In this document: in pieces, positions 11,106 to 21,784 of the stretch | Position numbering within the stretch: the first letter of the stretch is position 1 | Layout of the letters: each line of letters starts with the position of its first letter | From: Armatimonadota bacterium | Lineage (GTDB): Bacteria; Armatimonadota; Hebobacteria; Hebobacterales; Hebobacteraceae | Direction: 5' to 3' | NCBI GenBank assembly: GCA_015486155.1 | Contig: WFSF01000099.1 | Span: 1 to 38,031, forward strand | DNA: 38,031 bases | The notes under the pieces: model-generated | The model's database searches: none | What the model saw: only the letters and a program-made list of their open reading frames with translations | Told to the model about the DNA's origin: nothing | Made by a program: the position numbers and the translations under genes

Positions 11106-13007
11106 GTGAAAGCAACCCTGGTTTTGCTCGCGCTGCTGACGGCTGTACTGGTCACTCCTGGACTACTGCTCGCCGAATCGGTCGGGCCCATGGCGGCGAT
11201 CACCGCGCCTCATCCGGGCATCACGGTCACCTCCGACACGGTGGACGTGGGAGTGGAATACGGGGCCGCGGACGGCCTCGAGGTCACGCGGGTGGCGCTG
11301 TTGGTGGACGGCGTGCAGGTGGGCGAAGCCGACTTCGACCCTCCCCGGACGACCGGCATGGCCTACTTCCCGTGGCGGACCGAGGAATATCAGGACGGCC
11401 ATCACGAGCTCACCGCGCGCGTGGTGGACTCCGAGGGGCGGGTGGGGACCCACACCATTTCGGTGCTCTTGCAGCGCGGCACCCTGAATCTCGACGACGC
11501 GTTGTATATCTCCTCCCCCCAGCCCGGCGCTACGGTGGCCGGCGTCACCGAGGTAAAGGTGGCCGGTGACCGGGAGGGCCAGGTGAAATACGTCATCTTC
11601 CTGGTGGACAATGTGTTCAAGGCGCTGACCAACGTGCGGCCCTTCACCTACCGCTGGGACACCTCGCAGTACCTGAACGGCTTGCATCGGCTGCAGGCGC
11701 GCGCATATCGAAATGACGGCACCCACTACTTGACTCCAGTGGTCGAGGTGAGGGTGGACAACCCGAGCGGGGCCACCACCCTTCGCCGGCCGGAGCCGGC
11801 CCCGGCGGCGCGGGTCACCCCGAAACCCGTCGTGCAGCTTCCGGCGCGCGCGGAGACCCCCTCCCTGCCGCCTCCCATGCATTCTGAGGCGCGCGCGCCC
11901 GAGTTGCAAACAGTAGAGGTGGCCGAACCGGAGGTGGCGCGGCCGGGAACGGCCCCCTTCGTGGGGCCCAGCGGGGACCTTATCACGCCGTCTGCAGCGG
12001 AGGTCACCGGGCGGAGCGGCGCAGTGGCTCCTCTGGAGATCGCGGCTCTCCCTCCGGCGGCGGAGAAGGTGGAGACTTCTACCCCTCGGACTAAGACCGC
12101 CGCGCTCAGCGCGAAGGCGGAGCAGAGCCCTCCGGCGCCCGAGCTGGCCGGCGCCGGGCTGATGGTGGAATCGATGCCAGAGCCGGCGGCGGTGGCGGTG
12201 GATTCGCTCCCTGCCCCGGCGGCGAAACCGGCTTCCGTCGCTTCCGCGGCGTCCCCTGTCGAGCCTATCGCGGCGGACGCGACCCCCGTCGAAGTCGCGG
12301 CGCTTCCGGGGTCCGGAGCAGCCAGCCCCACGACTTCAACGGCTCCCGCCCCGCCCGCACCGAAGGCGGTGGCGGCCGAGCATGTGGAAGAGGCGGTAGT
12401 CACCCAGATGCCCGAGGGCACGGTGAGAGTGCCCCACCCCGTCGTTCATTACGCCATGCTGCCTCCTCGCACCTCGGCGTCCGCCCCGGCCCCCAAAGTG
12501 GTTGCCGAACCCGCGTCCGACGCGGCCGGATACGTGGTGCAGGAGGGCGACTGCTTGTGGGAGATCGCCGCCAAGTACGGGGTCTCCGCGCGGGAGCTGG
12601 CCGAGGTGAACGGAATCGAGGATCCGAACCTCATCCACCCCGGCCAGAGGCTCCAGGTGCCCATCGTCAGGCTCTACGCCGACGGCAAGCCGATTGCCAC
12701 CGATGTGCCGGTTACCGTCGCCGATGGACGGACCATTGCCCCGTTCCGGAGTGTGGTGGAATCTCTGGGCGGCCAGGTGACCTGGGATGCCGCCGGCCGG
12801 CGCGCGGTCGGCTCCGCGCTGGGCCGCACCATCGCGGTCACCATCGGCAGCGAGGTGGCGCAGGTGGACGATTCCGAGATGACCATGGACGCGGCCGCGC
12901 AGTTGCAGGACAACCGCACGGTGGTACCGCTGAGGTTCCTGGGAGACGCGCTGAAGTTGAGTCTGAACTATGAGCCGGGCGCGGTGCACATCGCCCGCGC
13001 GAAGTGA
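11106..13007 (+). CDS. Secreted Ig-like / LysM / copper-amine-oxidase-N-like domain protein
   Basis: A 633-residue exported protein with a GTG start at 11106 behind AAAAGGAG. Residues 1-23 are a signal peptide (TLVLLALLTAVLVTPGLLLA). Two bacterial Ig-like modules follow (about 28-120 and 130-218, the second starting ISSPQPGATVAG). A Pro/Ala/Glu-rich linker occupies about 219-470. A LysM module lies at 476-519 (YVVQEGDCLWEIAAKYGVS ... IHPGQRLQVP), which binds peptidoglycan glycan strands. The C-terminal ~110 residues match the copper-amine-oxidase N-terminal-like domain (DGRTIAPFRSVVESLGG, DNRTVVPLRFLGDAL), a domain found in surface proteins and not a catalytic oxidase. A wall-attached role in the envelope is likely. 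It stands alone between its promoter and a strong terminator. Confidence 0.88.
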   Translation: MKATLVLLALLTAVLVTPGLLLAESVGPMAAITAPHPGITVTSDTVDVGVEYGAADGLEVTRVALLVDGVQVGEADFDPPRTTGMAYFPWRTEEYQDGHHELTARVVDSEGRVGTHTISVLLQRGTLNLDDALYISSPQPGATVAGVTEVKVAGDREGQVKYVIFLVDNVFKALTNVRPFTYRWDTSQYLNGLHRLQARAYRNDGTHYLTPVVEVRVDNPSGATTLRRPEPAPAARVTPKPVVQLPARAETPSLPPPMHSEARAPELQTVEVAEPEVARPGTAPFVGPSGDLITPSAAEVTGRSGAVAPLEIAALPPAAEKVETSTPRTKTAALSAKAEQSPPAPELAGAGLMVESMPEPAAVAVDSLPAPAAKPASVASAASPVEPIAADATPVEVAALPGSGAASPTTSTAPAPPAPKAVAAEHVEEAVVTQMPEGTVRVPHPVVHYAMLPPRTSASAPAPKVVAEPASDAAGYVVQEGDCLWEIAAKYGVSARELAEVNGIEDPNLIHPGQRLQVPIVRLYADGKPIATDVPVTVADGRTIAPFRSVVESLGGQVTWDAAGRRAVGSALGRTIAVTIGSEVAQVDDSEMTMDAAAQLQDNRTVVPLRFLGDALKLSLNYEPGAVHIARAK

Positions 13008-13890: not shown

Positions 13891-16800
13891 ATGTCAAGAG
13901 CGAAGGCTGGCATTCTCCGCCTGGCGGTATTGATTCTCGTCGCGATGCCCCTCATATTCGACCTGGGGTCCAGAGCAGCCCTATCCTCCAACGAGCTGTC
14001 GCCGCTCCAGACCATCGTCCGCGGGCAGAGCCGATGGCTTGCCGGAGGGCCCGCCTCGCTGCGGGTCATCGTCACCAACCACGAGACCGGACGCCCGGTA
14101 AGGGGGGCGGTCCACCTCACGCTCACCCCCACCGATCAGCAGGCGATCGGCACCCAGCGTCTCTACAGCGGGGAGCTGAAGCAGGGAACCATGGAGGCGG
14201 CCTTCGAGGTCCCGGAGCTGAACCCCGGCACCTACGAACTCGCCGTGCGGGTGGTATCGGAGCTGGGCGTGGATGTGGTGAAAAGACCCGTCACCATCGC
14301 GCGGGAGACGCGGGTGTTGCTCACCACCGACAAACCTCTCTATCAGCCGGGTCAGACCATGCACCTGCGCGCGCTGGCCCTGCGACTTCCCTCCATGCGT
14401 CCGGCGGCAGGAGACCCGGTCACCTTCGAGGTGGAGGACGCGAAGGGCAACAAGGTGTTCAAGCAGACCGCGGCGGTCTCCGAGTACGGCGTCGCCTCCG
14501 CGAAGTTCGTCCTCGCCGACGAGGTGAACATGGGGCGATACAAGGTGCGCGCCGTCACCCCCGACGGCCGCGCCGAGCGGACCGTGGAGGTGGAGCGATA
14601 TGTGCTCCCAAAGTTCAAGGTCACTCTCACCACCGACAAACCCTACTATCTCCCCGGAGAGCGGATGACGGGCAAGGTGCAGGCCGACTACTTCTTCGGA
14701 AAGCCCACCTCCCAGGCCGAGGCGCTCATCACGCTGTCCTCGTTCGACGTGAAGTTTCACGAGTTCTCCGAGATCAAGGGCAAGACCGATGAGAACGGCA
14801 CTTTCCGGTTCGAGTGCGCGCTGCCGGACTACTTCGTGGGACAGCCCCTGGAGCAGGGCAAGGCCTTCGTGAAGGTGGAGGTGGAGGTTACCGACCGCGC
14901 CGAGCACACCGAGAAGATCACTGAGATGGTGCCGGTGGCGAAGGATCCGATGCTCGTGACGGTGGTGCCCGAATCGGGGGAGTTGAAGCCGGGGCTGGAC
15001 AACATCGTGTACGTGCTGGTCTCCACCCCGGACGGAAAGCCGGTGGCGGGGGCAACGGTACTCGCGGGGGCCGGCCCGGGCAATATCACCTCCGTCGCTC
15101 CGGAGAACCGAGTGCGGGGCGTGACCGATGCGGCGGGGATGTTCGAGTGGCGCCTACGCCCGAAGCCGGAAGATCGAATGCTCAATGTGATCGTAAACGA
15201 CAGCCGGGGACATGAGGTGGAGCGATCGGTGGAGGCGGCCAACAGTGGCGGGCAGGCATTGTTGTTGCGGGCCGACCGCGCCCTGGCGAAGGTCGGCGAT
15301 AGCGTCCATTTCACCGTCCTTTCCACCAAGCAGAGAGGGACGACTTATGTTGACGTAATCCGCGACAAGCAAACGGTGTTGACGCGGACGGTGGAGGTGA
15401 AGAACGGGCGGGCGAAGTTCTCCCTTTCCCTCACCTCCGACCTCGCGGGCACCCTCCAGGTGCACGCGTACCAGATTCTGCCGGACGAGAACATCATCCG
15501 CGACACCCGCCTGCTCTACGTGTCGCCCGCCGACGATCTGGTGGTGGAGGTGAAACCCGATAAGGATACCTATCGGCCGGGAGACCCCGCGCGGCTGCGC
15601 TTCTTCGTGCGTGACCAGGAGGGACGGCCCGTGCAGGCCGCTCTGGGAGTGACCATCGTGGACGAGAGCGTATTTGCGCTCCAAGAGATGCAGCCCGGCC
15701 TCGAGAGGATCTATTTCGCGCTGGAAAAGGAGCTGATGAAGCCGCGCTACGAGATACACGGCTTCACCCCGGAGGGCGTCGTCACCGGCCAACTGCCGTT
15801 TCGCGCCCCCGCGCCGGCGGAGGAGGAGGCGCTGCGACAAAGGGCGGCCGCCGTGCTCTTCGCTGCCTCTCAGCCGCGGGACCCCTATACTCTCACGGCC
15901 GACAGCTACCAGGAGCGCGTGGAGAAGATGAAGGAGCGGTGGGCGAAGGAGATGGCGCGCGATGCGGAGCGGATAGACCGCGCGCTCAAGCGCTACTACG
16001 AGCGGCACCGCCGGTATCTCGCGGAGAAGGATGGCATCACCACCCTGGTGGACGAAGGCCTGCTCCATCGGCGCGATCTCAAGGACCGCTGGGGGCGTGA
16101 TTACCGGGTGCGGTGGTGGAGAACCAACTGCGCGCTGGACTCCGCGGGCCCGGACGGCCGGTGGAACACCAGCGACGACCTGCGGAACATCGGGCAGTGG
16201 GCGCTGGAGGGCAATATGCCCGGGCGGGCGGTCCTGGGCGCCAGAGGAGGCGGGGGCCGCCGCGGGGGAATCGCGATGGACATGATGATGGAGAAGGCGA
16301 TGGCCGCGCCGCCGGCGGCGGCGCGCGCGGCCGCCGCGGGCCAGCCCCAGGTCCGCCTGCGGCAGTTCTTCCCGGAGACCATGTACGTGAATCCATCGGT
16401 GATCACCGATGAGCGCGGCCGCGCCTCGGTCACCGTGCAGATGGCCGATTCCATCACCACCTGGCGGATGCAGACGCTGGCTTCGTCCCAACGCGGGCAG
16501 CTGGGCAGCGATACGAAGGGGTTGCGAGTGTTCCAGGACTTCTTCATCGACATCGATCTGCCGGTGGCTCTCACCCAGAACGACGAAATCTCCATCCCCA
16601 TCGCGGTCTACAACTACCTGCCGAAGAGCCAGACCGTGCGCCTGAGCCTGGAGCGAGATCCCTGGTTCGAGCTGGTGGGGGACAAAGCGGAGAAGTCGCT
16701 GGACATCGGCCCGTCGGACATCACCGTCGCGTATTACCGCATCCGCGCCAAGGAGATCGGGAACCACTCGCTCACCGTTCACGCGCAGGGATCCAGGTTG

Positions 16801-18450
16801 AGCGACGCCATCAAGCGCAAGATCGAGGTTCTCCCTGACGGCGAGGAGCACCGGGACACCTGGAACGACCGCCTGGCGGGGACCGTCGAGAGGACCGTCA
16901 CTCTCCCCAAGGCGGCCATCCCCCGGGCCTCCACCATCCTGGTGAAGATCTACCCCGGCCTGTTCAGCCAGGCGGTGGAGGGGTTGGATTCGCTGTTGCG
17001 GATGCCGTTCGGGTGTTTCGAGCAGACCAGCTCGGTGACCTATCCGAACGTGTTGGTGATCGACTACATGAAGTCCACGAACAAGATCACCCCCGAGATC
17101 CAGATGAAGGCCGAGCAGTACATCAACGTGGGTTACCAGCGTCTGGTCTCGTTCGAGGTGAAGGGCGGCGGGTTCTCGTGGTTCGGGAACGCGCCGGCCC
17201 ACAAGGTGCTCACCGCCTACGGGCTGCTCGAGTTCCACGACATGAGCCGCGTCCACGAGGTGGACCCGAACCTCATCACCCGCACCCAGAACTGGCTCGT
17301 GGGCCTTCAGCAGAAGGACGGCTCGTGGGAGCCGGACAAGGGCGGGATCGCCGAGGGCATCATCAACCGCCAGACCGACACCCTGCGGGTAACCGCCTAC
17401 ATCACCTGGGCGCTCGCCGAGTCGGGCTATCGGGGGGGTGCGCTCGATCGCGCCTTCGGATACCTCGATGCTCACTGGCGTGAAGCAAGGGACCCCTATG
17501 CGCTGGCGGTGCTCGCCAACGCGTACCTGAGCTCCGGCCGCGAGGGAGATACGACCGGGCAGGTGGTGGATGCGCTGGCCAAGGCGGCGACGGTGGAAAA
17601 GGATGTCGCCTACTGGCGCACCGAAGGCCCCACCTTCACCTCCGCCCAGAACGGCTCCGCGGACCTGGAGACCACCGCGCTGGCCGCCTATGCTCTGGTC
17701 AAATCCGGCCGGCATGTGCTCCTGACGAACAAGGCAATCACCTATCTCATCCGCTCCAAGGACAGCTTCGGCACCTGGCGCACGACGCAGGCCACCGTCT
17801 GGTCTCTGAAGGCGCTGCTGGCGAGCCTGAAGAAGGCGGCCGAGGACATTGACGCGACGGCCACCATAGAGGTCAACGGGAAGCGGGCCGGCGAGTTCCG
17901 CATCACCCCGAAGGACTACGAGGTGGTCAGACAGGTGGACGCCAAGCAGTTGATTCACGATGGCGACAACCAGGTGAAGATCACCCTCAAGGGAAAGGGC
18001 AGCGCGCTCTATCAGATAGTGGCGAAATACTACTTGCCGTGGGCCCTGGTGCGGCCGCCCCGACAGGAGCTGCTCTCCATTGACGTGTCCTATGACCGCA
18101 CCGCGCTGCGGACCGATGACCTCCTCACCGCGCGGGTGAGCGTGGTGAACAACGACCCGCGGACCTGCAACATGGTGGTGATCGACCTCGGAGTCCCGCC
18201 TGGATTCGAGGTGCAGACCGCGGACCTGGATCGGCTGGTGGAGAAGCGCGTGGTGCAGAAGTACACCCTGGCCGCCAGACAGATCATCGTCTACCTGGAC
18301 AAGCTCGCCTCCCGCAAGCCGCTGGAGTTCAGCTACCGCCTGCGGGCGAAATTCCCCATCAAGGCGGCCACGCCGGCCTCCCGAGTGTACCGGTACTACA
18401 ACCCCGAGGTCGAGGCCACGGCCAAGCCGGTAGAGTTGACGGTTCGATAG
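13891..18450 (+). CDS. Bacterial alpha-2-macroglobulin with thioester motif and unusual bait region
   Basis: A 1519-residue secreted protease trap, with ATG at 13891 behind AAAGGAG. Residues about 8-32 are a signal peptide without an obvious lipobox. MG-type domains fill the first half (TDKPLYQPGQTMHLRAL, an MG1/MG2 hallmark, and TDKPYYLPGERM). The A2M core begins about residue 824 (ETMYVNPSVITDERGRASV). The thioester motif is G1041-C-F-E-Q1045 (C1042 and Q1045 kept), followed by the alpha/alpha toroid (LITRTQNWLVGLQQKDGSWE) and a C-terminal receptor-binding-like domain. Residues about 670-765 sit where the bait region belongs and look like a pseudopilin C-terminal domain (see findings), followed by a Gly/Met/Ala-rich stretch. 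No penicillin-binding protein 1C gene, the common partner, is adjacent. It likely defends the envelope against proteases. Confidence 0.93.
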   Translation: MSRAKAGILRLAVLILVAMPLIFDLGSRAALSSNELSPLQTIVRGQSRWLAGGPASLRVIVTNHETGRPVRGAVHLTLTPTDQQAIGTQRLYSGELKQGTMEAAFEVPELNPGTYELAVRVVSELGVDVVKRPVTIARETRVLLTTDKPLYQPGQTMHLRALALRLPSMRPAAGDPVTFEVEDAKGNKVFKQTAAVSEYGVASAKFVLADEVNMGRYKVRAVTPDGRAERTVEVERYVLPKFKVTLTTDKPYYLPGERMTGKVQADYFFGKPTSQAEALITLSSFDVKFHEFSEIKGKTDENGTFRFECALPDYFVGQPLEQGKAFVKVEVEVTDRAEHTEKITEMVPVAKDPMLVTVVPESGELKPGLDNIVYVLVSTPDGKPVAGATVLAGAGPGNITSVAPENRVRGVTDAAGMFEWRLRPKPEDRMLNVIVNDSRGHEVERSVEAANSGGQALLLRADRALAKVGDSVHFTVLSTKQRGTTYVDVIRDKQTVLTRTVEVKNGRAKFSLSLTSDLAGTLQVHAYQILPDENIIRDTRLLYVSPADDLVVEVKPDKDTYRPGDPARLRFFVRDQEGRPVQAALGVTIVDESVFALQEMQPGLERIYFALEKELMKPRYEIHGFTPEGVVTGQLPFRAPAPAEEEALRQRAAAVLFAASQPRDPYTLTADSYQERVEKMKERWAKEMARDAERIDRALKRYYERHRRYLAEKDGITTLVDEGLLHRRDLKDRWGRDYRVRWWRTNCALDSAGPDGRWNTSDDLRNIGQWALEGNMPGRAVLGARGGGGRRGGIAMDMMMEKAMAAPPAAARAAAAGQPQVRLRQFFPETMYVNPSVITDERGRASVTVQMADSITTWRMQTLASSQRGQLGSDTKGLRVFQDFFIDIDLPVALTQNDEISIPIAVYNYLPKSQTVRLSLERDPWFELVGDKAEKSLDIGPSDITVAYYRIRAKEIGNHSLTVHAQGSRLSDAIKRKIEVLPDGEEHRDTWNDRLAGTVERTVTLPKAAIPRASTILVKIYPGLFSQAVEGLDSLLRMPFGCFEQTSSVTYPNVLVIDYMKSTNKITPEIQMKAEQYINVGYQRLVSFEVKGGGFSWFGNAPAHKVLTAYGLLEFHDMSRVHEVDPNLITRTQNWLVGLQQKDGSWEPDKGGIAEGIINRQTDTLRVTAYITWALAESGYRGGALDRAFGYLDAHWREARDPYALAVLANAYLSSGREGDTTGQVVDALAKAATVEKDVAYWRTEGPTFTSAQNGSADLETTALAAYALVKSGRHVLLTNKAITYLIRSKDSFGTWRTTQATVWSLKALLASLKKAAEDIDATATIEVNGKRAGEFRITPKDYEVVRQVDAKQLIHDGDNQVKITLKGKGSALYQIVAKYYLPWALVRPPRQELLSIDVSYDRTALRTDDLLTARVSVVNNDPRTCNMVVIDLGVPPGFEVQTADLDRLVEKRVVQKYTLAARQIIVYLDKLASRKPLEFSYRLRAKFPIKAATPASRVYRYYNPEVEATAKPVELTVR

Positions 18451-18468
18451 AATCACATAGCAATCGCA

Positions 18469-18721: not shown

Positions 18722-18754
18722 ACGTGAATCTTGTCTTCCCTAAAGGAGGGAGAG

Positions 18755-19453
18755 GTGGCGCCCGGCGCGGAGACGCTGTCACAGACGATTGAGGAATACG
18801 TGGAGACGATCCACCGCTTCAGCCGCAGGCCGGAGGGCGCCTCCACGACCGGACTCGCCAAATACCTTGGAGTGAGGCCGGCCACGGTGAGCGGGATGTT
18901 GAGGCGGCTGTCCGCGCTGGGGCTCGTCACCTATCGCAGATATCGTCACATCGCGCTGACCGAGAAGGGCGAGCGTCTGGCCAGGGATGTGATCAAGCGG
19001 CATCGTCTGGCGGAGCGATTGTTGACCGATCTGCTGAAGATGCCTCTTGCGGAGGCCCACGAAGAGGCGCGCAAGCTGGGGCACGCGGTGTCTCCGAAGG
19101 TGGCCGCCCGCCTTACGGAGGTCCTCGGCTCGCCCAAATCCTGCCCTCACGGGCATCCGGTGGATGTATCCGGCAGGGATGCCACCATCCCCCTGACGGA
19201 CGCGCCCACCGACCGGCCGATGACCATATCAAGGCTGGATGACGAGACCGCGGAGGTGGTGCGCTATCTTGCCGATCGAGGTCTTCTTCCGGGTCGGAAG
19301 GTCATTCTGCGCGAGGTGGATCCGCTGAACGCGACGGTGGCGCTTGAAACCGAGGGGGGAAGGTATACGGTGGGTTATTCACTTGCCGCAAACATCCGAG
19401 TGGACAGGCCGAAGCGCAGGGAAAAGGGCTCCACAAGCAGAAGCAAGGACTAG
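18755..19453 (+). CDS. DtxR/MntR-family metal-dependent transcriptional regulator
   Basis: A 232-residue regulator. The track starts at a TTG (18731), but AAAGGAGGG stands 4 bases before the GTG at 18755, which is the better start. A winged helix covers about 8-70 (TTGLAKYLGVRPATVSGMLRRL), a dimerisation/metal domain about 75-140, and an SH3/FeoA-like domain about 155-222 (LADRGLLPGRKVILREVDP). By eye the N-terminal ligands resemble MntR (E14 and E17 in EEYVETIH; H83), but the usual primary-site residues in the second helix are replaced: ARKLGHAVS stands where DtxR has ACRWEHVMS, so C/E102-type and E105-type ligands are R106 and G109 while H110 is kept. It heads the feoAB operon, so it most likely controls iron uptake. 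Confidence 0.92.
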   Translation: MAPGAETLSQTIEEYVETIHRFSRRPEGASTTGLAKYLGVRPATVSGMLRRLSALGLVTYRRYRHIALTEKGERLARDVIKRHRLAERLLTDLLKMPLAEAHEEARKLGHAVSPKVAARLTEVLGSPKSCPHGHPVDVSGRDATIPLTDAPTDRPMTISRLDDETAEVVRYLADRGLLPGRKVILREVDPLNATVALETEGGRYTVGYSLAANIRVDRPKRREKGSTSRSKD

Positions 19454-19505
19454 CGCGGGAGTGGACCGAGGGAGCGTGGTGGGCAGTGCTTGGAGCAGGA
19501 GAGAG

Positions 19506-19775
19506 GTGCCAGTGGTAAAGCAGCCGGATGCGATGTCTTTGATCTCTCTCGCGCCGGGGCAGCGCGCGCGAGTCGAGGCCATATGTTGCGGCCAGGGATT
19601 TCGCATGCGGCTGGCGGCCCTTGGGATCATTCCGGGGACCGTGATCACGGTGTTGCGCAATGCAGGCGCCGGCCCGGTGATAGTGGAGGCGAGAGGAGGA
19701 AGGTTGGCGCTCGGACGCGGGCAGGCGGCGAAAATCGAAGTGCGGCCGACCTCCGGCGAGACGAGGGGAGGCTAG
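19506..19775 (+). CDS. feoA: Ferrous iron transport accessory protein FeoA
   Basis: An 89-residue SH3-fold protein from the GTG at 19506, which has AGGAG just upstream; an ATG at 19533 (MSLISLAPGQ) would give 80 residues. The longer ORF in the track runs back into dtxR and is not real. Family motifs are LAPGQRARVEAI, GFRMRLAALGIIPGTVITVLR and GRGQAAKIEV (usually L-x-x-x-x-A-x-x-I). FeoA is a small cytosolic partner needed for FeoB-dependent Fe(II) uptake. Its TAG stop overlaps the feoB GTG by one base, so translation is probably coupled. Confidence 0.93.
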   Translation: MPVVKQPDAMSLISLAPGQRARVEAICCGQGFRMRLAALGIIPGTVITVLRNAGAGPVIVEARGGRLALGRGQAAKIEVRPTSGETRGG

Positions 19776-21784
19776 TGGCGAGCGGACCGAAGGCGTCTCC
19801 AAAGGTCATCCGGGTGGCGCTGGCCGGCAATCCCAATGTCGGCAAGAGCACCATCTTCAACATTCTCACCGGCCTCCATCAGCATGTGGGCAACTGGCCC
19901 GGCAAGACCGTCGAACGCAAGGAGGGCGCCTGCCGTCTGGAGGGCTATCTCCTGGAGTGCATGGACCTGCCGGGAACCTACTCGCTGACCGCTCACTCGG
20001 CCGAGGAGATAGTCGCCCGCGATTATGTGCTGAAGGAGCGGCCGGACGTCGTAGTGGTGATCCTCGACGCCTCGAACATCGAGCGCAACTGCTATCTCTT
20101 GGTACAGGTGCTGGAGCTCACCGACCAAGTGGTCGTGGGGCTGAACATGATGGACCTGGCGGGGGTCAAGGGCTATCGCATCTTCCCCGACAAACTCGAA
20201 GAGATCCTGGGCGTCCCCGTGGTTCCCATGGTGGCGCGCAGAGCGGAAGGGTGCCAGGAACTCCTGAAGGCGATCATAGAGGTCGGCACCGGTCAACGCG
20301 CCACCTCTCCCCGCCCCATCCGCTACGGGGCGGCGGAGAGCACTCTGGCCAGGCTCCAGGAGCTCCTTGCAGGAGAGAACCTGGAGGGGCTGCCGGCTCG
20401 CTGGGTGGCGCTGAAGATGCTCGAGGGGGACGAAGAGGTTGAGCGGTTGGAGGAGCGGGCCGTTTCCCCGGAGACGCGGGAGCGGATACACGCCTTCCTG
20501 CGGCAGCATGAGTATGGGCCCGCGGTGATCGCGGATGCGCGTTACGCCTGGATCGAGGAGGTGCTGGCCGAAGGCATGGAGCGCCCCGCGCGCTCGGTGA
20601 TCACCTTCACCGACCGGATCGACCATGTGGTCACCCATAGATTTCTCGGCCTGCCCATCTTGCTGGCGATCTTCGTCTGCGTATTCTGGCTGACTTTCAA
20701 GGTGAGCGCCCCCCTCTCCGACTTGCTGGACGCCGGGTTCGGACGGTTGAGCACATGGACCGCGGCGGCGCTGGCCTCCTACCCATCCTGGTTCGTCAGT
20801 CTCTTGTCCGACGGCGTGATTCCCGGGGTCGGCGGCGTCCTCAGCTTCCTGCCCATCATCCTCATTCTCTTCCTCTTCCTGGGGCTGCTGGAGGACAGCG
20901 GATACATGGCGCGCGCCGCCTTCGTGACAGACCGCATCATGCACGCCATGGGGCTGCACGGCAAGGCGTTCCTCTGTCTGCTGGTGTCATACGGGTGCAA
21001 CGTCCCCGGGATCATGGCGACGCGCATCCTGGAGAGCGAGCGCGACCGGCTGCTGGCAATCCTGGTCAATCCCCTCATCCCATGCGCCGCGCGCATCGCG
21101 GTGGCCGCGTTCTTCGTCGGGGCCTTTTTCCCCTCACCCAAGAACACCTTGGTGATGGGGTCTCTCTACGCGCTCAGCCTGGCGATGGTGGTGTTCGTCG
21201 GCTTCGTGCTCAGGCGGGTGGTGCTTCCCGGCGAGGAAGCGCCCTTCATGATGGAGCTGCCGCTCTACCGCAAGCCGAACGTGCGCAATTTGGCCGTGTA
21301 CACCGGGTGGCGTCTCTTGGCCTTCCTGAAGAAGGCGGGGACGGTCATCCTGGGCGCCTCGGTCGTCATCTGGCTCCTCTCCTCCTATCCCGTGGGCGCC
21401 GATCTCCCGCACACCTACCTGGGGCGGCTGGGGTTCCTGCTCCAGCCTGTGGGAAGGCTGGTGGGATTCGATTGGCGGATGAGCGTGGCCCTGCTGACCG
21501 GATTCGCGGCCAAGGAAACTTCCCTTGCCACCCTTGCCGTGTTGTACCACGCGGAGGGGGAAAGTCTGGTGCAGACCCTGCAGCAGAACATGAGCCCCCT
21601 GGTGGCGCTGGTGTTCGTGGTGGTGCAGCTCCTCTACATACCCTGCCTGGCGACGGTGGCGGTGATGCGCAGCGAAACCAACAGCTGGAAATGGCCGTTG
21701 GTCGCCATGGCCTATTCCTTGCTGCTGGCGGGAGGGCTCGGGTTCCTCATCTTCCAGGTGGGCCGCGCCCTGGGTCTGGGCTAG
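19775..21784 (+). CDS. feoB: Ferrous iron transporter FeoB
   Basis: A 669-residue transporter. The GTG at 19775 overlaps the feoA stop and follows GAGGGGAGG; the track's 764-residue frame includes feoA sequence read out of frame. The cytosolic G domain has G1 GNPNVGKST, G3 DLPGTYS and G4 NMMD. A helical GDI-like domain follows, and then the membrane part with two Gate regions and YGCNVPGIMATRILESERDR, the FeoB core motif that includes the proposed iron-path cysteine. A second conserved stretch is LVNPLIPCAARI. It imports Fe(II) across the inner membrane. It is shorter than the E. coli protein (773 aa). No feoC is present. Its stop codon overlaps the stop of the convergent protease gene. Confidence 0.96.
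   Translation: MASGPKASPKVIRVALAGNPNVGKSTIFNILTGLHQHVGNWPGKTVERKEGACRLEGYLLECMDLPGTYSLTAHSAEEIVARDYVLKERPDVVVVILDASNIERNCYLLVQVLELTDQVVVGLNMMDLAGVKGYRIFPDKLEEILGVPVVPMVARRAEGCQELLKAIIEVGTGQRATSPRPIRYGAAESTLARLQELLAGENLEGLPARWVALKMLEGDEEVERLEERAVSPETRERIHAFLRQHEYGPAVIADARYAWIEEVLAEGMERPARSVITFTDRIDHVVTHRFLGLPILLAIFVCVFWLTFKVSAPLSDLLDAGFGRLSTWTAAALASYPSWFVSLLSDGVIPGVGGVLSFLPIILILFLFLGLLEDSGYMARAAFVTDRIMHAMGLHGKAFLCLLVSYGCNVPGIMATRILESERDRLLAILVNPLIPCAARIAVAAFFVGAFFPSPKNTLVMGSLYALSLAMVVFVGFVLRRVVLPGEEAPFMMELPLYRKPNVRNLAVYTGWRLLAFLKKAGTVILGASVVIWLLSSYPVGADLPHTYLGRLGFLLQPVGRLVGFDWRMSVALLTGFAAKETSLATLAVLYHAEGESLVQTLQQNMSPLVALVFVVVQLLYIPCLATVAVMRSETNSWKWPLVAMAYSLLLAGGLGFLIFQVGRALGLG

Follow-up and report, generated by a model that had tools for sequence, protein, structure and literature searches.

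What stands at the bait site of the alpha-2-macroglobulin (A2M) encoded on contig WFSF01000099.1 of an Armatimonadota bacterium (assembly GCA_015486155.1), and what could it contribute to a protease trap? The window analysed here is the whole stretch from position 1 to 38,031 of this contig, 38,031 nucleotides in length. An earlier sequence-only reading had placed a module resembling the type II secretion pseudopilin GspG at this site, as a long charged helix followed by particular strings of residues, and the translation of the open reading frame (ORF) bears out both: LVDEGLLHRRDLKDRWGRDYRVRWW and DSAGPDGRWNTSDDL lie within residues ~715-764, and the charged helix lies upstream of them. We find that residues ~673-770 are homologous to the headpiece of GspG-type pseudopilins, a claim that is strong in both sequence and fold. 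We further propose, with a probability of about 0.6, that the bait site combines this captured headpiece as a spacer with a flexible linker as the working bait.

Sequence homology of the bait-site module to GspG

The T2SSG family (PF08334) matched the fragment 15880-16320 with 22.6 bits (E=1.1e-4; Pfam cut-off 21 bits), and further scores of 22.9 bits on the fragment and 21.1 bits in a genome search were obtained. In a scan of the entire 1519-residue A2M the score was 16.1 bits, under the cut-off, so routine annotation would miss the module. For comparison, 76 loci encoding relatives of A2M residues 564-950 were collected and 50 inserts were aligned; the loci were retrieved partly by insert-derived patterns and are therefore biased towards module-bearing A2Ms, a bias that the PF00207 family search described below does not carry. 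When the inserts were scanned one by one, 31 of the 50 matched T2SSG at E<=0.1 (best 7.5e-9), and the runner-up family matched 4 of 50. A profile built from 50 A2M-only homologues ranked GspG first in the PDB, all of the top eight matches being GspG (E 5e-8 to 0.0035). The reverse direction gave the same picture: across the window's phylum the A2M-insert profile also retrieved ORFs of 130-180 residues with E-values down to 3e-11, and those inspected among the top scorers begin with FTLIELLV-type prepilin sequences and are canonical GspG pseudopilins. The hidden Markov model of the module found no match at E<=10 among reversed ORFs.

The alignment of 50 inserts contains invariant columns at the E-I-H anchor, at D and W of the D-x-W-G motif, and at S, G, D, and D of the S-x-G-P-D...D-D loop. 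Counted over 35 homologues, D732 is kept in 34 and W734 in 35, while the loop keeps S751 in 33, G753 in 35, D755 in 33, D762 in 34, and D763 in 34. This loop aligns with the SPGPDGVPNTEDDI loop of GspG from enterohaemorrhagic Escherichia coli (PDB 3g20), and its conserved residues make it a putative calcium loop. The ratio of nonsynonymous to synonymous substitution rates (dN/dS) in the module is 0.04-0.27 for five homologue pairs; these are rough estimates from short segments, and they suggest that the module is under purifying selection.

The helix, the DPWG strand, and the GPDG...DD loop occur in the same order in GspG-type pseudopilins (PDB 3g20, 1t92, 5o2y, 3gn9, 4lw9). Unlike these proteins, the module sits inside an A2M, lacks a class III prepilin signal and a hydrophobic N-terminal membrane helix upstream of it, and scores 16 bits against TIGR01710, whose equivalog cut-off is 88.85 bits. 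The sole hydrophobic segment of the window A2M is N-terminal (residues 7-25, by hydropathy).

Predicted fold of the module

AlphaFold2 modelling on the module alignment predicts a long helix (local residues 53-86) and three strands, with blocks of the predicted local distance difference test (pLDDT) mostly at 90-98. The top eight PDB matches of this model in Foldseek are GspG, EpsG, and PulG; the first four reach a probability of 1.00 and template modelling (TM) scores of 0.51-0.57 on the target length, with modest E-values of 8.5e-3 at best. The same elements appear in a 1195-residue AlphaFold2 model as a helix (673-706) and three strands (739-743, 746-751, and 764-768) with pLDDT blocks of 71-90, and low-confidence segments flank the module on both sides (residues 594-621 and 775-818). 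The prediction is neither disorder nor a macroglobulin (MG) domain, in agreement with the module proposed from the letters alone. A chance resemblance or an ordinary MG domain, in whose favour the low T2SSG score of the whole-protein scan could be counted, was considered as well and is ruled out with near certainty by the T2SSG scans, the profile search against the PDB, the AlphaFold2 and Foldseek fold, the reverse search, and the reversed-ORF control.

The best Foldseek matches of the 1195-residue model are CD109, A2ML1, A2Moo, and TEP1r, ahead of the A2Ms of E. coli and Salmonella. As judged from this model, the window A2M is of the eukaryote-like (CD109/A2ML1/TEP-like) type.

Domain anatomy of the A2M

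Pfam assigns MG2, MG3, MG4, A2M_BRD, A2M, TED_complement, and A2M_recep to the window A2M. With its MG domains, thioester domain (TED), receptor-binding domain, and CxEQ motif all present, the protein has the features of a thioester A2M. The central elements follow one another as A2M_BRD, EIHGF anchor, linker helix, pseudopilin head, disordered linker, alpha'NT plug, PF00207, TED, and A2M_recep. The module thus occupies the bait site, where the sequence-only reading had put it: the linker after MG6-beta precedes it and the alpha'NT plug comes later, with ~200 residues in all from EIHGF to the plug. An antisense ORF of 1100 residues overlies the gene (window 15154-18456, minus strand) and is probably a shadow of A2M codon usage.

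Table 1 Features of the A2M gene in window coordinates, with the basis for each assignment.
Feature	Position	Strand	Basis
A2M ORF, 1519 residues	13891..18450	+	ORF listing and Pfam domains
A2M_BRD Pfam domain (MG5/MG6-beta side), residues 459-597	15265..15681	+	Pfam E=1.2e-15
Linker after MG6-beta: EIHGF motif, then helix residues 642-658, up to module	15751..15906	+	EIH invariant in 50 homologues; helix in both AlphaFold2 models
Pseudopilin-head (GspG-like, T2SSG) module, residues 673-770	15907..16200	+	Pfam T2SSG, profile vs PDB, AlphaFold2, Foldseek
D-R-W-G motif, residues 732-735 (= DPWG of GspG)	16084..16095	+	Residue conservation
Putative calcium loop S751-A-G-P-D755...D762-D763	16141..16179	+	Residue conservation; alignment to GspG 3g20
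Gly/Ala/Met/Arg-rich linker, residues 775-820, probable true bait	16213..16350	+	Low pLDDT, low conservation
alpha'NT plug RLRQFFPET, residues 822-830	16354..16380	+	Conservation; alignment to human A2M
A2M (PF00207) domain, residues 835-920	16393..16650	+	Pfam E=2.1e-20
Thioester domain, residues 1026-1309	16966..17817	+	Pfam E=8.9e-47
Thioester motif C1042-F-E-Q1045	17014..17025	+	C, E, Q columns invariant in 35 homologues
A2M_recep domain, residues 1426-1511	18166..18423	+	Pfam E=2e-16

Linker and alpha'NT plug

The linker that follows the module is predicted to be disordered, with a pLDDT of 24-35 over residues 775-818 in the 1195-residue model. Among the 35 homologues its majority fraction (0.31) is the lowest of all segments; the strand/loop part reaches 0.58 and the plug 0.80. 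It measures 46 residues in the window A2M and 38-78 residues in 29 short-linker homologues, save one of 102; the linkers of these homologues are rich in Ala (19.5%), Gly (15.3%), Pro, Arg, Glu, and Met. In the five homologue pairs its dN/dS is higher than that of the module in three and slightly lower in two, as rough values from short segments. Predicted disorder and low conservation fit the earlier suggestion that this Gly/Met/Ala-rich stretch is the cleavage segment, and the linker is probably the true bait. By prediction, an exposed flexible bait stands ahead of the alpha'NT plug.

The plug aligns with VRKYFPET of human A2M, and R824 and F827 therefore correspond to the human plug residues R732 and F735 (PMC9352918). 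Both are invariant in 35/35 homologues.

Distribution and architectural variants

A survey of 151 genomes of the window's phylum found a PF00207 match in 120. The module was matched 51 times at E<1e-16 in ORFs of at least 850 residues, from 50 genomes, one match being a degenerate paralogue. The nearest named relatives belong to Candidatus Hebobacteria, a class of Armatimonadota. By title, the 76 loci also include Poribacteria, WOR-3, TA06, Hydrogenedentota, Planctomycetota, Omnitrophota, and Acidobacteria; these titles are those of metagenome bins, in which single names may be wrong. The insert expected in A2M homologues is thus present in several phyla. A quick tree of the region from PF00207 to the TED separates the module-bearing A2Ms, together with one Chloroflexi sequence, from 12 short-bait A2Ms by a fully supported branch (support 100), and the module-bearing clade spans Armatimonadota and other phyla. 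A2Ms from the window's phylum that lack the module (e.g. L118, L120, L129, and L144) are short-bait proteins and fall outside this clade. The tree is weakened by long branches and by the quick method; it is compatible with one gain of the module and is no proof of it.

GspG-like sequences were also seen outside A2Ms. At L114 (1116-3276), three adjacent small proteins have hydrophobic segments and a GspG-like strand with a G-x-D...DD loop and no prepilin start, one of them with two copies. A GspG-like loop module likewise occurs in non-pilin-looking ORFs of 218, 159, 644, and 377 residues (L174, L178, L180, and L181). The loop module may be widely mobile, as far as its occurrence in these sequences indicates.

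Gene neighbourhood

No gsp gene was found among the A2M neighbours tested. A tblastn search with five window neighbours revealed no conserved operon and no shared gsp gene; only a LysM-type protein, at three loci, and DtxR/FeoB, at two, recurred. The former, encoded upstream of the A2M at 11106-13007 and carrying Big_7, LysM, and Cu_amine_oxidN1, also adjoins the A2M in L006, L007, and L008. The latter pair, a DtxR-type repressor with a FeoA domain followed by FeoB (18731-21784), also adjoins it in L005 and L009.

Comparison with other members of the superfamily

The window A2M shares the order of MG domains, TED, and receptor domain, the CxEQ thioester, and the R..F plug of alpha'NT with human A2M, A2ML1, CD109, and insect TEP1. 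Human A2M differs in that its bait is an unstructured stretch of 39 residues (PMC9352918), whereas the disordered linker of the window A2M follows a folded module. A parallel in position is found in complement C3, C4, and C5, members of the same superfamily, where a folded anaphylatoxin (ANA) domain lies between a linker and alpha'NT (PMC9352918). In sequence and fold the two domains are unrelated: the window A2M has no Pfam match to ANA, and its module contains one cysteine, in contrast to the disulphide-bearing ANA fold. E. coli and Salmonella A2Ms (YfhM, ECAM) are bacterial members of the superfamily too, but rank lower as fold matches than the animal proteins, and the short-bait A2Ms of the same phylum share the superfamily and lack the module.

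Discussion

The spacer-and-bait proposal builds on computed features: the module's homology, fold, and position, the conservation of its loop, the disorder of the linker, and the invariance of R824 and F827 in the plug. In such a trap, an exogenous protease would cut the exposed linker, the alpha'NT plug would then leave its channel, and this release would expose the Cys-Gln thioester, which would bind the protease. The headpiece would not be the cleavage target; as a compact, probably Ca2+-stabilised, and protease-resistant spacer, it may shorten the effective length of the 200-residue segment and hold the bait outward, analogous to the placement of ANA in C3 and C5. After a single cut, the headpiece would stay on the N-terminal half.

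Several observations weigh against this proposal. The arrangement of domains in the 1195-residue model is uncertain and not to be trusted (predicted TM score 0.59; global superpositions of at least 20 Å for most of the best Foldseek matches). Acidobacterial members carry an additional CarboxypepD_reg domain after the head, in the linker; in the A2M of a group 4 acidobacterium (L070, 2481-8309), the bait site holds this domain and two significant plus one marginal tandem GspG-like heads. Another acidobacterial A2M (L041, 919-6513) has a module without the S-x-G-P-D...D-D loop, and A2Ms from Chloroflexi bins (L039, 3327-8264; L029, 3291-6782) carry no head at the bait site, where 6-7 hydrophobic, membrane-like segments are found. 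The CarboxypepD_reg addition, the loop loss, and the membrane-like segments mean that no single spacer design is required. The degenerate paralogue (1412 residues; L175, 1746-5984, minus strand) keeps T2SSG above the cut-off; its TED match is weak, MG7 gives none, and no CxEQ is apparent. This retention suggests some role of the module beyond the thioester trap.

A role of this kind could be recognition: the bait would be delivered to its target through binding of the module surface to a protease, to a polymer of the cell envelope, or to some other protein. Such a domain would fit the purifying selection on the module, its long retention across phyla, its duplication in L070, and its persistence in the thioester-less paralogue. 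The conserved positions, however, are those of the fold (DxWG and the loop Asp residues), and the others are mostly poorly conserved (majority fraction 0.40-0.44), so that no common binding face is evident. Recognition seems unlikely to us. Homology to a major pseudopilin also raises docking of the module to the cell's own type II secretion system (T2SS) or type IV filament, where the A2M would guard the export route or capture exiting proteases. Weaker pilin-like matches are indeed present in 50/50 module-bearing genomes, and TIGR01710 (GspG) exceeds its curated cut-off in 38. The lack of a hit above that cut-off in the other 12, including the single-contig genomes G012 and G087, weighs own-T2SS docking down as a main role; the module moreover lacks the N-terminal helix through which pilins polymerise, and the neighbours tested include no gsp genes. 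We regard docking as quite improbable.

Two other alternatives give proteolysis of the module region a different part. GspG needs calcium, and the near-invariant loop Asp residues would suit a calcium-gated bait, in which the module itself is cut when the headpiece loosens at low calcium; this is the hardest of the functional alternatives to credit, as a separate linker of roughly human-bait length or longer exists in all short-linker homologues and one member has no loop. Cleavage on both sides might also free the module as a signal, like C3a from C3. The anaphylatoxin-domain position (PMC9352918; alignment to human A2M) and the low-confidence segments on either side agree with such a release, but no receptor is known and the residues leading directly into the module form a moderately conserved helix; we hold it very unlikely. 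A broader version, still doubtful in our view, is that a folded domain at the anaphylatoxin position evolved independently of complement through capture of a pseudopilin head, and that the head, released or exposed once a protease has cut the bait, serves a purpose of its own as a signal, decoy, or filament contact.

Our search found no literature joining macroglobulins with pseudopilins or GspG; it ran mostly outside subscription journals and is thus weak evidence of novelty. The module extends the use of pilin-family heads beyond filaments to a protein of the protease-trap kind, and it joins complement as a second example of an A2M trigger site that holds a folded domain. Lengthening the bait of human A2M by 10-20 residues favours the collapsed form (PMC9352918), yet ~200 residues lie between EIHGF and the plug in the window A2M, so that nature itself offers a test of the plug-in-channel model. 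More generally, the bait site of this family accepts different domains, from the pseudopilin head to CarboxypepD_reg and membrane-like helices.
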